Part shown: piece after piece, positions 20,636 to 25,478 of the stretch | Layout: every line of letters begins with the position of its first letter | Position numbering within the stretch: the stretch's first letter is position 1 | Assembly (NCBI GenBank): GCA_902524955.1 | Contig: CABZEY010000010.1 | Span: forward strand, 1 to 39,214 | DNA from: an uncultured Pelagibacteraceae bacterium | GTDB lineage: Bacteria > Pseudomonadota > Alphaproteobacteria > Pelagibacterales > Pelagibacteraceae | DNA length: 39,214 nt | Reading direction: 5' to 3' | Translations under genes and position numbers: made by a program | The notes under the pieces: model-generated | The model's database searches: none | Seen by the model: the letters and a program-made list of their open reading frames with translations, nothing else | What the model was told of the DNA's origin: nothing

Positions 20636-22075
20636 GTGGACGATAGATTAAAAGAAGAATGTGGAATTTTTGGTGTCTATAACCACCCTGAAGCATCTGC
20701 ACTAGTAGCTCTTGGTTTACATGCCCTTCAACATAGAGGTCAAGAGGCTTGTGGTATTAATTCTTTTGATGGGAAAAATTTTTACTTAATTAAAAGAAGA
20801 GGACTAGTTGGTGACAATTTTACTGACCCTAATATAATTGAACAACTAAAAGGACACACTGCAATTGGACACAACCGCTATTCTACAACAGGAGCTCCTT
20901 TAATAAGAAATATTCAACCTTTTTTTGCTGACTTACATACTGGTGGCCTTGGGATTGCTCATAATGGTAATTTAACTAATGCAATTAGTATACGAGAAAA
21001 AATGGTTAGAGATGGTGCTATTTTTCAAACTACATCAGACACAGAGACACTCGTACAACTTATAGCTAGATCAAAAAGGGTTAAAACAATCGATAAAATT
21101 ATAGATGCAATATTTCAAGTCCATGGTGGGTATTCGTTAACAATTATGACTAATAAAAAACTTGTAGGGGTTAGAGATCCGTATGGAATTAGGCCTTTAA
21201 TATTAGGTAAGCTAAATGATTCATATATTTTATCTTCTGAAACATGTGCCCTAGATATTATTGGAGCTGAATTTGTTAGAGAGATAGAAAATGGTGAAAT
21301 GGTAGTTATAGATAAAAAAGGAATAGAAAGTATTAAACCTTTTCCTAAAGTAAAGCCCAGACCCTGTGTTTTTGAATATGTATATTTCTCAAGACCTGAC
21401 AGTATTGTTGGCGGGAAAGCTGTTCATGAATACAGAAAAAGATTAGGTGAACAACTTTCAAAAGAAATGAAAGTTGAAGCTGACATGGTGTCAGCAGTTC
21501 CCGACTCAGGTATTCCTGCAGCAATTGGTTACTCGAATGAATCTGGAATTCCTTATGATATGGGTATTATAAGGAATCATTACGTAGGACGGACTTTCAT
21601 TGAGCCAACACAACAAATAAGGCAACTTGGAGTAAAACTTAAACATAATCCAAACAAAGAAATTATTAAAAATAAAAAATTAATTTTAGTCGATGACTCA
21701 ATTGTAAGAGGTACGACCTCTAAAAAAATAGTTGATATGCTCTACAATGCTGGAGCAAAAGAGATTCATTTATGCATTTCGAGTCCACCGATTAAACATC
21801 CAGATTACTATGGCATAGATACACCGAATGTTAAGGATTTAATTGCCGCAAATCATTCTGTTGATGAAATAAAAAAAATTATTGGAGTAGATACTTTACA
21901 ATTTCTATCTATAGATGGACTGTACAGAGCTCTTGGATTTGACAAGAGAGATAACCAAAATCCACAATTTACAGATCACTGCTTTACTGGCGATTATCCT
22001 GTCCAACCAGTTGATCAACTTAATCAATTTGAAAAAAATAATCAATTATCTCTATTGAGCAATGTGAGGCTATAA
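20636..22075 (+). CDS. purF: Amidophosphoribosyltransferase
   Basis: PurF makes phosphoribosylamine from PRPP and glutamine, the first committed step of purine synthesis. It is 479 residues. The start is a GTG: the eight residues before Cys9 (EECGIFGVY) form the short propeptide normally removed to expose the N-terminal nucleophile, and no upstream in-frame start fits. The Ntn-type glutaminase domain shows HALQHRGQEACGI, GHNRYSTTG and AHNGNL. The phosphoribosyltransferase domain carries the PRPP loop LILVDDSIVRGTT. No ribosome-binding site is visible. The pathway links it to purM-purN, guaB-guaA and gmk elsewhere in this window. Confidence 0.97.
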   Translation: MDDRLKEECGIFGVYNHPEASALVALGLHALQHRGQEACGINSFDGKNFYLIKRRGLVGDNFTDPNIIEQLKGHTAIGHNRYSTTGAPLIRNIQPFFADLHTGGLGIAHNGNLTNAISIREKMVRDGAIFQTTSDTETLVQLIARSKRVKTIDKIIDAIFQVHGGYSLTIMTNKKLVGVRDPYGIRPLILGKLNDSYILSSETCALDIIGAEFVREIENGEMVVIDKKGIESIKPFPKVKPRPCVFEYVYFSRPDSIVGGKAVHEYRKRLGEQLSKEMKVEADMVSAVPDSGIPAAIGYSNESGIPYDMGIIRNHYVGRTFIEPTQQIRQLGVKLKHNPNKEIIKNKKLILVDDSIVRGTTSKKIVDMLYNAGAKEIHLCISSPPIKHPDYYGIDTPNVKDLIAANHSVDEIKKIIGVDTLQFLSIDGLYRALGFDKRDNQNPQFTDHCFTGDYPVQPVDQLNQFEKNNQLSLLSNVRL

Positions 22076-22078
22076 TTT

Positions 22079-22888
22079 TTAATTATAAGGATTTTTATTA
22101 TTTATAAATTTTATTATAACTATTTGATTATAAATTTTTAATTGATACAAAACCTGTTTTACAAAATAATTTTTGTAATCTTTGCTTAAAGAAGTCAATT
22201 TATTTCCGAAAGCTTTGAATATTATTGGTTTAGAATTAACTTGTCGCAAAAATTTTATTGTTGGTCTGCTTTTTTTATTGAATACTGGCTGGTGTTTGGA
22301 GAGAACTAATTTCAAAACATTATTTACATCTTTGTTCTTTATTAATTTTTTTGAATTTTCATAGATATCGTACAATTTGTTCAACAAAAATTCCTTTTTA
22401 ATATTTTTAAGTGCTGAAATAAAAATAGGTTTTAAAAGAATATTTGGAAAATTTTTTTCAAAAAAATATTTAAAATATTCTTCTTTCTTTTTTAAATTAT
22501 CTTTTATTAAATCTGTTTTATTAATAATAACAATTATATTTTTTAGTTTGTTTAAAATTAACCTAAATAACTGTTTATCATTTTTAGTTATTTCATCACT
22601 ACCATCTAGGATAAACAGAACAACATCGGAAAATTTAAGTTTTTTTAGTGTTTCAGATGTAATCAGCTTTTGGGTTTTTTCATATGATTTGGATTTTTTT
22701 TTAAGACCACCTAAATCTATTAAATTAATGTTCAAATCTTTAAATTTCTCAGAAAGTTCTATAGGGTAAATAGTTGTCCCAGAAACTTCGCTTACTTTAG
22801 AAATATTTGATCCTGCAATTTTGTTGAAAATTGTAGACTTCCCCACGTTTGGTTTACCAATAATGCAAACATTTAGACACGCAATCAT
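22079..22888 (-). CDS. der: Der-type ribosome-assembly GTPase with one G domain
   Basis: Der (EngA) normally has two tandem G domains and a C-terminal KH-like domain (about 440-490 residues) and aids 50S assembly. This protein has 269 residues: one G domain then the KH domain. G1 is GKPNVGKS at 11-18, G2 GTT at 37-39, G3 DLGG at 58-61 (usually DTAG), G4 NKTD at 123-126, and G5 SAL follows. The GLKKKSK stretch after G3, the KHQPVFNKKSRPTIKF region from about 200 and the terminal NPY match the second G domain and KH domain of full-length Der. The yfgM-bamB-der order supports the identity. The upstream gene overlaps it by one base, so the first G domain is not hidden beside it. Confidence 0.85.
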   Translation of the reverse strand: MIACLNVCIIGKPNVGKSTIFNKIAGSNISKVSEVSGTTIYPIELSEKFKDLNINLIDLGGLKKKSKSYEKTQKLITSETLKKLKFSDVVLFILDGSDEITKNDKQLFRLILNKLKNIIVIINKTDLIKDNLKKKEEYFKYFFEKNFPNILLKPIFISALKNIKKEFLLNKLYDIYENSKKLIKNKDVNNVLKLVLSKHQPVFNKKSRPTIKFLRQVNSKPIIFKAFGNKLTSLSKDYKNYFVKQVLYQLKIYNQIVIIKFINNKNPYN

Positions 22889-24144
22889 TAGTATTTGAGG
22901 ATAGAATTTTTTGTATTTATATAAAGATTATTGTTATAGATAATTGAATCTTCATAATTTCTTGCGACCTTTGACCTTGAATATTTATTAAAATTATTTT
23001 TATCTAATGCAATTTTAAAACCTTTATTATCGAAAATGTAAATCCAATTATTGCCTACTATTACATCTTTAAAGAGGATTTTTTTTTTGTTTTTAGACAT
23101 ACTTAAATTCTTATTAAATACTATTTTTCCGTTTGTTTTGTTGATCATGAAGACTCTATCTTTCCATGAGTTTATTAAATATTTTTCAGTAATTATAAAC
23201 CTGTTAGTTGAATAAATTGGTTTAGACCATTTTATTAATCCAGTCTTAATATCAATCGCATATGTATAACCATAGTTCGTTGATAGAAATATATACCCGT
23301 TTTTGTCTATTGAAATTGGACTAGATTTAAAAAGAAGTGGCTTGTTTTCAAAATTTGAAGTCTGAAAAACAAGTGACCAATTGATATTATTTTTTTTTAA
23401 ATCTAAACAATAAATTTCAGCATTATCATTTGTAAATACCAGATCATTATTGAAAATTGCAATTTGATAAGATTTGTTATCTTTTAAATCTCGCGAGGCT
23501 GTCTCAAAGCTCCAGTTTAATTTACCATTATCAGTATTAATTGAATAAATCTTACTATTGCTATTAATTAGATATAAATTGTTACTATGTACTTTTAAAT
23601 TTGATTTAAAAGGAACACCAAAATTCTTTTTCCATACTGTATCAAGGTTTGTAATATTAAAAGCATGAATATTTCCAAGACTATCAGCCACTAATAACTT
23701 ATTTTTAAAAGCAATTATTTTGAAATCAATATTGTAATTTTTATAAATTTTTCTTTTATAAATTTTTTTAGATTTAAGTGTTTTTAAATTGGTATCTAGT
23801 ATATTAATTTTAGATTTATTATTTATAGTTATAATTTTATTTTTATATATTATAAACTTATCAATATTTTTTGAAACTGATTTATTTTTTTTTTCTAAAA
23901 ATATTCTAACAGGGTAAATTAAATTGTTTTTATTTTGGTGAGACTGTGACCATTCTTTATAGGAGTGATATTTAGTTTTTTTTAAATTTTTAATAACTTT
24001 TACATCAATAGAATTTAAATTTTTTTTTTGAACTAGTACTATTTTTTCTCCTTGATTAGTAAATGATTTAATATCAACAAGCTCTTCTTTTGTTCCTCCG
24101 CATGCAATGAGGAAAAGGAAGAAAACATAGAGAATTATTTTCAT
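22888..24144 (-). CDS. bamB: BamB-like outer-membrane lipoprotein
   Basis: BamB is a beta-propeller lipoprotein that supports BamA in folding outer-membrane proteins. This 418-residue protein begins with a lipoprotein signal peptide whose lipobox LIAC places the lipidated cysteine at residue 15. After a linker come repeated PQQ-like blades with typical segments such as NITNLDTVWKKNFGVP, INTDNGKLNWSFET and IDIKTGLIKWSKPIY. Gene order yfgM-bamB-der is conserved in proteobacteria. It overlaps yfgM by four bases and der by one. Sequence divergence is high, so the BamB name rests on lipobox, blades and position together. Confidence 0.85.
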   Translation of the reverse strand: MKIILYVFFLFLIACGGTKEELVDIKSFTNQGEKIVLVQKKNLNSIDVKVIKNLKKTKYHSYKEWSQSHQNKNNLIYPVRIFLEKKNKSVSKNIDKFIIYKNKIITINNKSKINILDTNLKTLKSKKIYKRKIYKNYNIDFKIIAFKNKLLVADSLGNIHAFNITNLDTVWKKNFGVPFKSNLKVHSNNLYLINSNSKIYSINTDNGKLNWSFETASRDLKDNKSYQIAIFNNDLVFTNDNAEIYCLDLKKNNINWSLVFQTSNFENKPLLFKSSPISIDKNGYIFLSTNYGYTYAIDIKTGLIKWSKPIYSTNRFIITEKYLINSWKDRVFMINKTNGKIVFNKNLSMSKNKKKILFKDVIVGNNWIYIFDNKGFKIALDKNNFNKYSRSKVARNYEDSIIYNNNLYINTKNSILKY

Positions 24145-24710
24145 TTAAAATTTCTTTGTATCTGTTTAGCTTTTTCTAATTGATTTGATTTGATATAATA
24201 ATCATACAACAATTTTGTTTTTAATAATTTAAAATTATCTTTATTTTTTTTAATTTTAGTTAAATTTAAAATTTCATTTTCGTTAATACTATCAAAATTT
24301 AAAATTACTTTTTTAATCTCAGATAATTCAATAAACATACTATTATTAAAAACATCGGTATTATTTAAAATTTCTAGAGCTTTGTTTTTTTGATTATTAT
24401 TTATAAAATACTCTGCAAGCTTATTCATTGCTAACAATTTAATTGTATCATTTCCTTCTTCTCTTATTGTATTTAATATTTGAATTCCTTTGATATCGTT
24501 ATTATCTAATAATATCTCAGCTTCAATATATTTAGATAAAAATTGCTCTTGCTTTTTCTCATTGTAAAAAAAAAATACCTGAATTGAAATTGGTAAAACT
24601 ATAAGAATTGATGCTAATACAACAACTAGGATCTTATTTTTTTTAAAAAAATTTGAAACTTTATCTTTAAAAAGATCATCCTCTATCTGTGTTTCTAATT
24701 CATTTGACAT
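24141..24710 (-). CDS. YfgM-like membrane-anchored TPR protein
   Basis: A 189-residue protein with an acidic N-terminal tail, one membrane segment at about 28-50 (KNKILVVVLASILIVLPI) and a periplasmic helical region resembling TPR repeats, for example LAEYFINNNQKNKALEILNN. This is the layout of the YfgM family, an ancillary factor at the Sec translocon that hands secreted proteins to periplasmic chaperones. Its place directly before bamB and der matches that family's usual locus. It starts at the base next to the panB stop. Confidence 0.75.
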   Translation of the reverse strand: MSNELETQIEDDLFKDKVSNFFKKNKILVVVLASILIVLPISIQVFFFYNEKKQEQFLSKYIEAEILLDNNDIKGIQILNTIREEGNDTIKLLAMNKLAEYFINNNQKNKALEILNNTDVFNNSMFIELSEIKKVILNFDSINENEILNLTKIKKNKDNFKLLKTKLLYDYYIKSNQLEKAKQIQRNFK

Positions 24711-25478
24711 TTAATAAATATTATTTTTTGTTGGAAATTTTCTATTTTTTATATCTTTAGCATATTCTTTTACAGCTTTTTTTATATAACCTCTTAAATT
24801 TGAATATTTTTTTACAAATTTTGGTACTTTTTTAAACATACCAAGCATATCCTCCAATACCAAAATTTGACCATCGCACTTTTTGGATGCGCCAATACCG
24901 ATTATAGGTACTTTGGATAACTTCATAACCTCTTTTGCCGTTTCGTTTTTAACAGCCTCTAAAACAATCGCAAATACACCAGCCTCTTGAATATTTTTCA
25001 AATCATTTAAAATTTTGTTTTTTTCCGCTGAATTTATGCCTTTAATTTTATAATCTTTTTTTGATTGAACTTTTTGAGGTAACAACCCAATGTGACCCAT
25101 GACGTTAATTTTATTCTTAATTAAATATTGAATGATATGTTTTATTTCTTTTCCACCTTCCAATTTAACTGCATCGCATTTTGTTTCCTTTATAATTCTT
25201 AAGGCATTTTTTTTTGCCAATAAAGGATTTTTGCAAGTACCATAAGGCATATCTACAACCATCAAGGCTTTTTTAACTCCTGATCTTACAGATTTTGCAT
25301 GTCTAATCATATCATTTAAACTTACAGACCGTGTTGATGTATCACCGTAATAAGCCATTCCTAATGAGTCCCCCACCAATACGATATCACAAAATTGATC
25401 AGCAATTTCAGCGAAGAACTTATTATATGAGGTCAAACAAATAATCGGTCTTTTTTTAAAATTAATTTTCTTCTTCAT
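24711..25478 (-). CDS. panB: 3-methyl-2-oxobutanoate hydroxymethyltransferase
   Basis: PanB transfers a hydroxymethyl group from methylene-tetrahydrofolate to alpha-ketoisovalerate, giving ketopantoate for pantothenate and CoA synthesis. It is 255 residues, slightly short of the usual 263-275. Typical segments are ICLTSYNKFFAEIAD (N-terminal), DIVLVGDSLGMAYYG with the metal-binding Asp, VVDMPYGT, AVKLEGG, MGHIGLLPQ, and IGIGASKKCDGQILVLEDMLG near the C-terminus. It overlaps the upstream lyase gene by four bases and abuts yfgM, so it is embedded in the long minus-strand unit. No panC is in the window. Confidence 0.95.
   Translation of the reverse strand: MKKKINFKKRPIICLTSYNKFFAEIADQFCDIVLVGDSLGMAYYGDTSTRSVSLNDMIRHAKSVRSGVKKALMVVDMPYGTCKNPLLAKKNALRIIKETKCDAVKLEGGKEIKHIIQYLIKNKINVMGHIGLLPQKVQSKKDYKIKGINSAEKNKILNDLKNIQEAGVFAIVLEAVKNETAKEVMKLSKVPIIGIGASKKCDGQILVLEDMLGMFKKVPKFVKKYSNLRGYIKKAVKEYAKDIKNRKFPTKNNIY

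Follow-up and report, generated by a model that had tools for sequence, protein, structure and literature searches.

A minus-strand ORF of 269 aa (ATG at 22888, stop at 22079) was located in a stretch of 39,214 nucleotides (hereafter 'the window'; contig CABZEY010000010.1 of assembly GCA_902524955.1), which constitutes contig 10 of a 971-kb, 21-contig draft genome of a SAR11-type alphaproteobacterium estimated to be 85% complete. The ORF and its neighbours were annotated by Pfam and NCBIfam profile searches, by a 22-sequence alignment of clade members, and by structure prediction, giving the following features:

22079..22888, minus strand: der, single-G-domain form (269 aa, G2 + KH)
22349..22876, minus strand: G domain, corresponding to G2 (GD2) of Der, residues 5-180
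22085..22342, minus strand: Der-type KH-like domain (PF14714), residues 183-268
22832..22858, minus strand: G1 motif/P-loop GKPNVGKST (residues 11-19) with the K-loop Asn14
22772..22774, minus strand: G2 motif, Thr39 (switch I)
22706..22717, minus strand: G3 motif D58-L-G-G61 (DxxG)
22511..22522, minus strand: G4 motif N123-K-T-D126
22409..22417, minus strand: G5 motif S158-A-L
22888..24144, minus strand: bamB-like beta-propeller gene (PF13360), the stop codon of which overlaps the der start by one base (TAATG)
24141..24710, minus strand: TPR/YfgM-like gene, same operon (weak PF09976 match, E = 0.024)
24711..25478, minus strand: panB, same operon (PF02548, E = 6.6e-91)
20636..22075, plus strand: purF, convergent neighbour and other border of the der slot (named by direct reading of the sequence rather than by a family search; position conserved in relatives)

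The Der model TIGR03594 matched the ORF over profile positions 175-431 of 432 only, that is, over the second G domain and the KH domain, far beyond chance (E = 1.7e-54) but with a score of 185.5 bits relative to a full-length cut-off of 306.7. Pfam identified MMR_HSR1 at residues 6-124 and the Der KH domain PF14714, with a best stretch at residues 183-252 (38.8 bits, cut-off 27.3). By contrast, the Era model TIGR00436 matched residues 6-176 only, at 64.1 bits (cut-off 116.25), and the MnmE models (TIGR00450/NF003661) gave 66.7 bits relative to a cut-off of 252.6. All five G motifs were present, and G11, K12, P13, N14, G16, K17, S18, T19, T39, D58, G61, N123, K124 and D126 were invariant across 22 sequences with 27-76% identity to the window protein, while S158 was at least 90% conserved. 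The sequence-only reading had noted a change of G3 from DTAG to DLGG; this change is real but mild, as the motif reads DTGG, DSGG, DVGG or DTPG in relatives and only D58 and G61 are fixed, in keeping with the DxxG rule. Residues after the switch I Thr39 are also altered relative to Der. Since bamB shares one base with der, purF ends three bases from its stop codon, and the open frame extends only 13 codons upstream of the ATG (282 aa), there is no room for a first domain at this locus. Neither a full-length Der nor a stand-alone first domain was found elsewhere in the same (85% complete) genome: of the ten Der-profile matches, eight were named (der itself, MnmE, Era, IF-2, Obg, LepA, YchF and TypA), and the other two were located in frames of 424 and 696 aa, too long for a lone G domain.

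The reduced architecture was not restricted to one draft genome. Out of 297 genomes of the order (Pelagibacteraceae/SAR11, by the titles of named relatives), none had a Der above the family cut-off, and 49 carried a match over the G2-KH part of the profile (17 among the 150 high-quality genomes). In comparison, 369 of 387 Alphaproteobacteria genomes at least 90% complete contained a full-length Der above the cut-off. Genera and families are referred to here by number (g1 and so on, and f1 and so on, respectively). Single-domain Der occurred in genera g1, g6, g8 and g12 of family f1 and g15-g18 of family f2, including the single-contig genomes G005, G006, G012 and G180 (lengths of 1,237,371, 1,160,202 and 1,284,727 for G005, G012 and G180, respectively) and named MAG records (L088-L090). 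The simplest reading is a single loss of the first domain at or before the ancestor of both families, and the clade formed one group in a domain tree (89/78, a node not starred). Among the class genomes that seemed to lack Der at E 1e-40, family f27 carried a diverged two-domain Der, and genome G624 had both domains in adjacent frames (G1, then G2-KH; contig C2, 513-1978), possibly due to a frameshift, a sequencing error or a true split. Eight others showed no Der; these included near-complete genomes of other alphaproteobacterial families (for example, G470, G463, G687 and G423), for which either assembly gaps or independent losses could be the cause.

The identity of the remaining G domain was examined by phylogeny and by profile comparison. 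A first domain tree included fast-evolving f27 and f122 sequences and was distorted by long branches, and the analysis was repeated without them. In the resulting tree of 55 G domains the SAR11 domain joined Der G2 (88/87 support), but the tree was short and not decisive, as forcing the domain to group with G1 (AU test, p = 0.10) or Era (p = 0.35) was not rejected. Profiles built from G1, G2, Era and MnmE domains, however, placed G2 first for 19 of 19 clade members (95-137 bits, relative to 59-93 for G1, 44-68 for Era and 39-64 for MnmE). What the short domain tree could not resolve was settled by the Der-specific KH domain, which was above the PF14714 cut-off in each Der-bearing relative tested, and by the conserved gene order: a bamB-like gene lay beside full-length der in 28 of 35 other alphaproteobacterial loci, and the SAR11 loci retained panB-TPR-bamB-der in both families, with purF-cvpA facing it in f1. 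dN/dS ratios in nine pairs were 0.016-0.066 (several dS values being close to saturation), indicating that the short gene is under strong purifying selection.

AlphaFold prediction using the clade alignment gave a model with pLDDT 90 and pTM 0.87. The best matches to this predicted structure in the PDB were EngA/YphC bound to B. subtilis 45S particles (9bsl, Z 27.3, 253 residues, 2.3 A; 9bs0, Z 26.7) and mitoribosome-bound EngA of trypanosomatids (6yxx, 7aoi and 7am2; Z 24-27), found in large-subunit intermediates and consisting of far longer chains (497-576 aa). Free EngA crystal forms matched less well (Z 21-23, rmsd 2.7-3.9), as did the older E. coli EngA-50S model 3j8g (Z 20.7, rmsd 4.0), while Era aligned over the G domain only (168-175 residues). 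For the KH domain, the structural match extended to residue 265. This fits, but does not prove, a G2-KH unit set in a ribosome-bound arrangement; the arrangement comes from AlphaFold, the training data of which may include such structures.

In several sister genera the gene was absent altogether. The 22-sequence Der profile of the clade identified no Der in seven genomes of genus g4 that are single contigs at 99-100% completeness, nor in tested genomes of g2, g3, g5, g7, g9 and g10 (the g7 and g9 genomes being only 83% and 77% complete, respectively); only frames of MnmE and Obg size were found, and PF14714 was absent from all genomes of g2, g3, g4, g5 and g10 tested. In g2 (locus L196, 5550-8400) and g3 (locus L197, 3697-6495) the panB-(TPR)-bamB/purF neighbourhood was intact, with bamB and purF about 2 and 10 bp apart, respectively, where der should be. 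Interestingly, Era was missing from the same genera (for example, in the complete or near-complete genomes G010, G023, G031, G061, G067, G008, G009 and G011; lengths of 1,308,759 and 1,456,888 for G031 and G061). Altogether, 50 of the 297 genomes had Era, and the clade's own Era profile found only MnmE- and Obg-sized frames in the der-less genomes. Among the high-quality genomes, 17 had both genes, 4 had Era only (in one of these, G028, der is cut at a contig end), none had Der only, and 129 had neither. EngB (YihA/YsxC, about 200 aa) may be missing too, as Der-profile searches that pick it up in other Alphaproteobacteria showed no EngB-sized match in the SAR11 genomes tested, although its own model was not used.

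Taken together, these results identify the ORF, in the old bamB-der position, as the der (engA) orthologue reduced to G2 plus KH, as the sequence-only reading had proposed; the two observations that reading had named as capable of overturning this, a full-length der in the same genome or a tree placing the domain with Era or another family, were both sought, and neither was obtained, although the genome is 85% complete, so that the statement about it rests on its complete relatives, and the tree alone excludes neither G1 nor Era. The reading needs one extension, as the reduction is clade-wide and looks like an intermediate stage; the protein thus does not show which part of Der is 'indispensable', as had been suggested, since even G2-KH has been lost in the sister genera.

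How the protein works is inferred, without experimental data on ribosome binding or GTPase activity. In full-length EngA, GD1 sits near the L1 stalk, GD2 in the P-site space, and KH points towards the peptidyl-transferase centre (PTC) (PMC13278734). GD1 is the fast GTPase, while isolated GD2-KH of B. subtilis, a laboratory construct with the same domain content, binds nucleotide (GDP/GMPPNP) normally and is K+-stimulated, but hydrolyses about 150-fold more slowly than GD1 (PMC3466195). The most probable explanation, held with fairly good confidence, is that the first G domain was lost once and that the SAR11 protein still acts as a GTP-dependent late 50S assembly factor, binding pre-50S with G2 in the P-site region and KH reaching towards the PTC, and leaving after slow GTP hydrolysis by G2. 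Lacking the L1-stalk contact and the fast GTPase, it would be a one-switch placeholder rather than a two-switch machine. The function of the first domain could be either dispensable under slow growth and genome streamlining, or taken over by other factors such as ObgE, a partner of EngA in reconstitution (PMC13278734), which is retained in the genome of the window.

A functional shift, in which the protein no longer acts on the 50S but on another RNA or on the 30S, appears unlikely. It would be compatible with the Era-like layout (one G domain followed by one KH domain), with the strong sequence drift (27-41% identity to the window protein outside g1, g8 and g12), and with der and era being missing from the same genera, which could reflect linked roles. 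However, the genomes also keep a separate, normal Era, so that an Era substitute is not needed, the KH domain is of the Der type, the predicted structure aligns with ribosome-bound EngA over more than 250 residues, and the gene neighbourhood is unchanged. It is more doubtful still that loss of G1 was the first step of pseudogenisation and that the remaining ORF has little function: although sister genera have lost the gene entirely, two of them with an otherwise intact locus, the low dN/dS, the invariant GTPase motif residues across two families, the intact frames in the sampled loci and the persistence of the reduced form through the deep divergence of two families all speak against it.

Derivation from the first G domain, or from another TRAFAC GTPase secondarily fused to the Der KH domain, is similarly improbable; the AU test does not exclude G1 or Era, and sequence matches to both domains of Der were obtained, but the G2 profile scored best in 19 of 19 members, the match to G2 and KH is continuous and collinear, and parsimony speaks against it. 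An artefact of the fragmented draft assembly, with the true gene full-length or the first domain encoded elsewhere, is ruled out by the complete genomes with the same architecture, and bamB and purF abut the gene on both sides.

It is likely, although not demonstrated, that the SAR11 order dismantled Der in two steps, by loss of the first G domain in its common ancestor followed by precise loss of the whole gene, together with era, in several genera including g4, with the genus of the window preserving the intermediate stage. These free-living bacteria would then assemble ribosomes with neither of two GTPases regarded as near-universal or essential. EngA was essential in every system tested (PMC10448771) and is kept even by all Mollicutes surveyed (PMC4014445), and Era loss was reported only for extremely reduced groups (PMC10582724); no description of single-domain Der, or of Der/Era loss in SAR11, was found in the open-licence literature. 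While homology and position are those of Der, the protein lacks the double G domain that defines the family. A lineage keeping only G2-KH, beside sisters that keep nothing, is a natural deletion series, and suggests that the first, fast GTPase domain can go before the second.

A related reduction was noted outside the order, in family f27 (genomes G528, G339 and G596; loci L129, L130 and L131, respectively). No Era was found in G339 and G528 with the SAR11 Era profile, and the two-domain Der of this family has a first G domain that is still physically present but eroding, with the P-loop and DTPG present and the NKxD (G4) motif missing in L129, probably representing a convergent, earlier stage of the same reduction.
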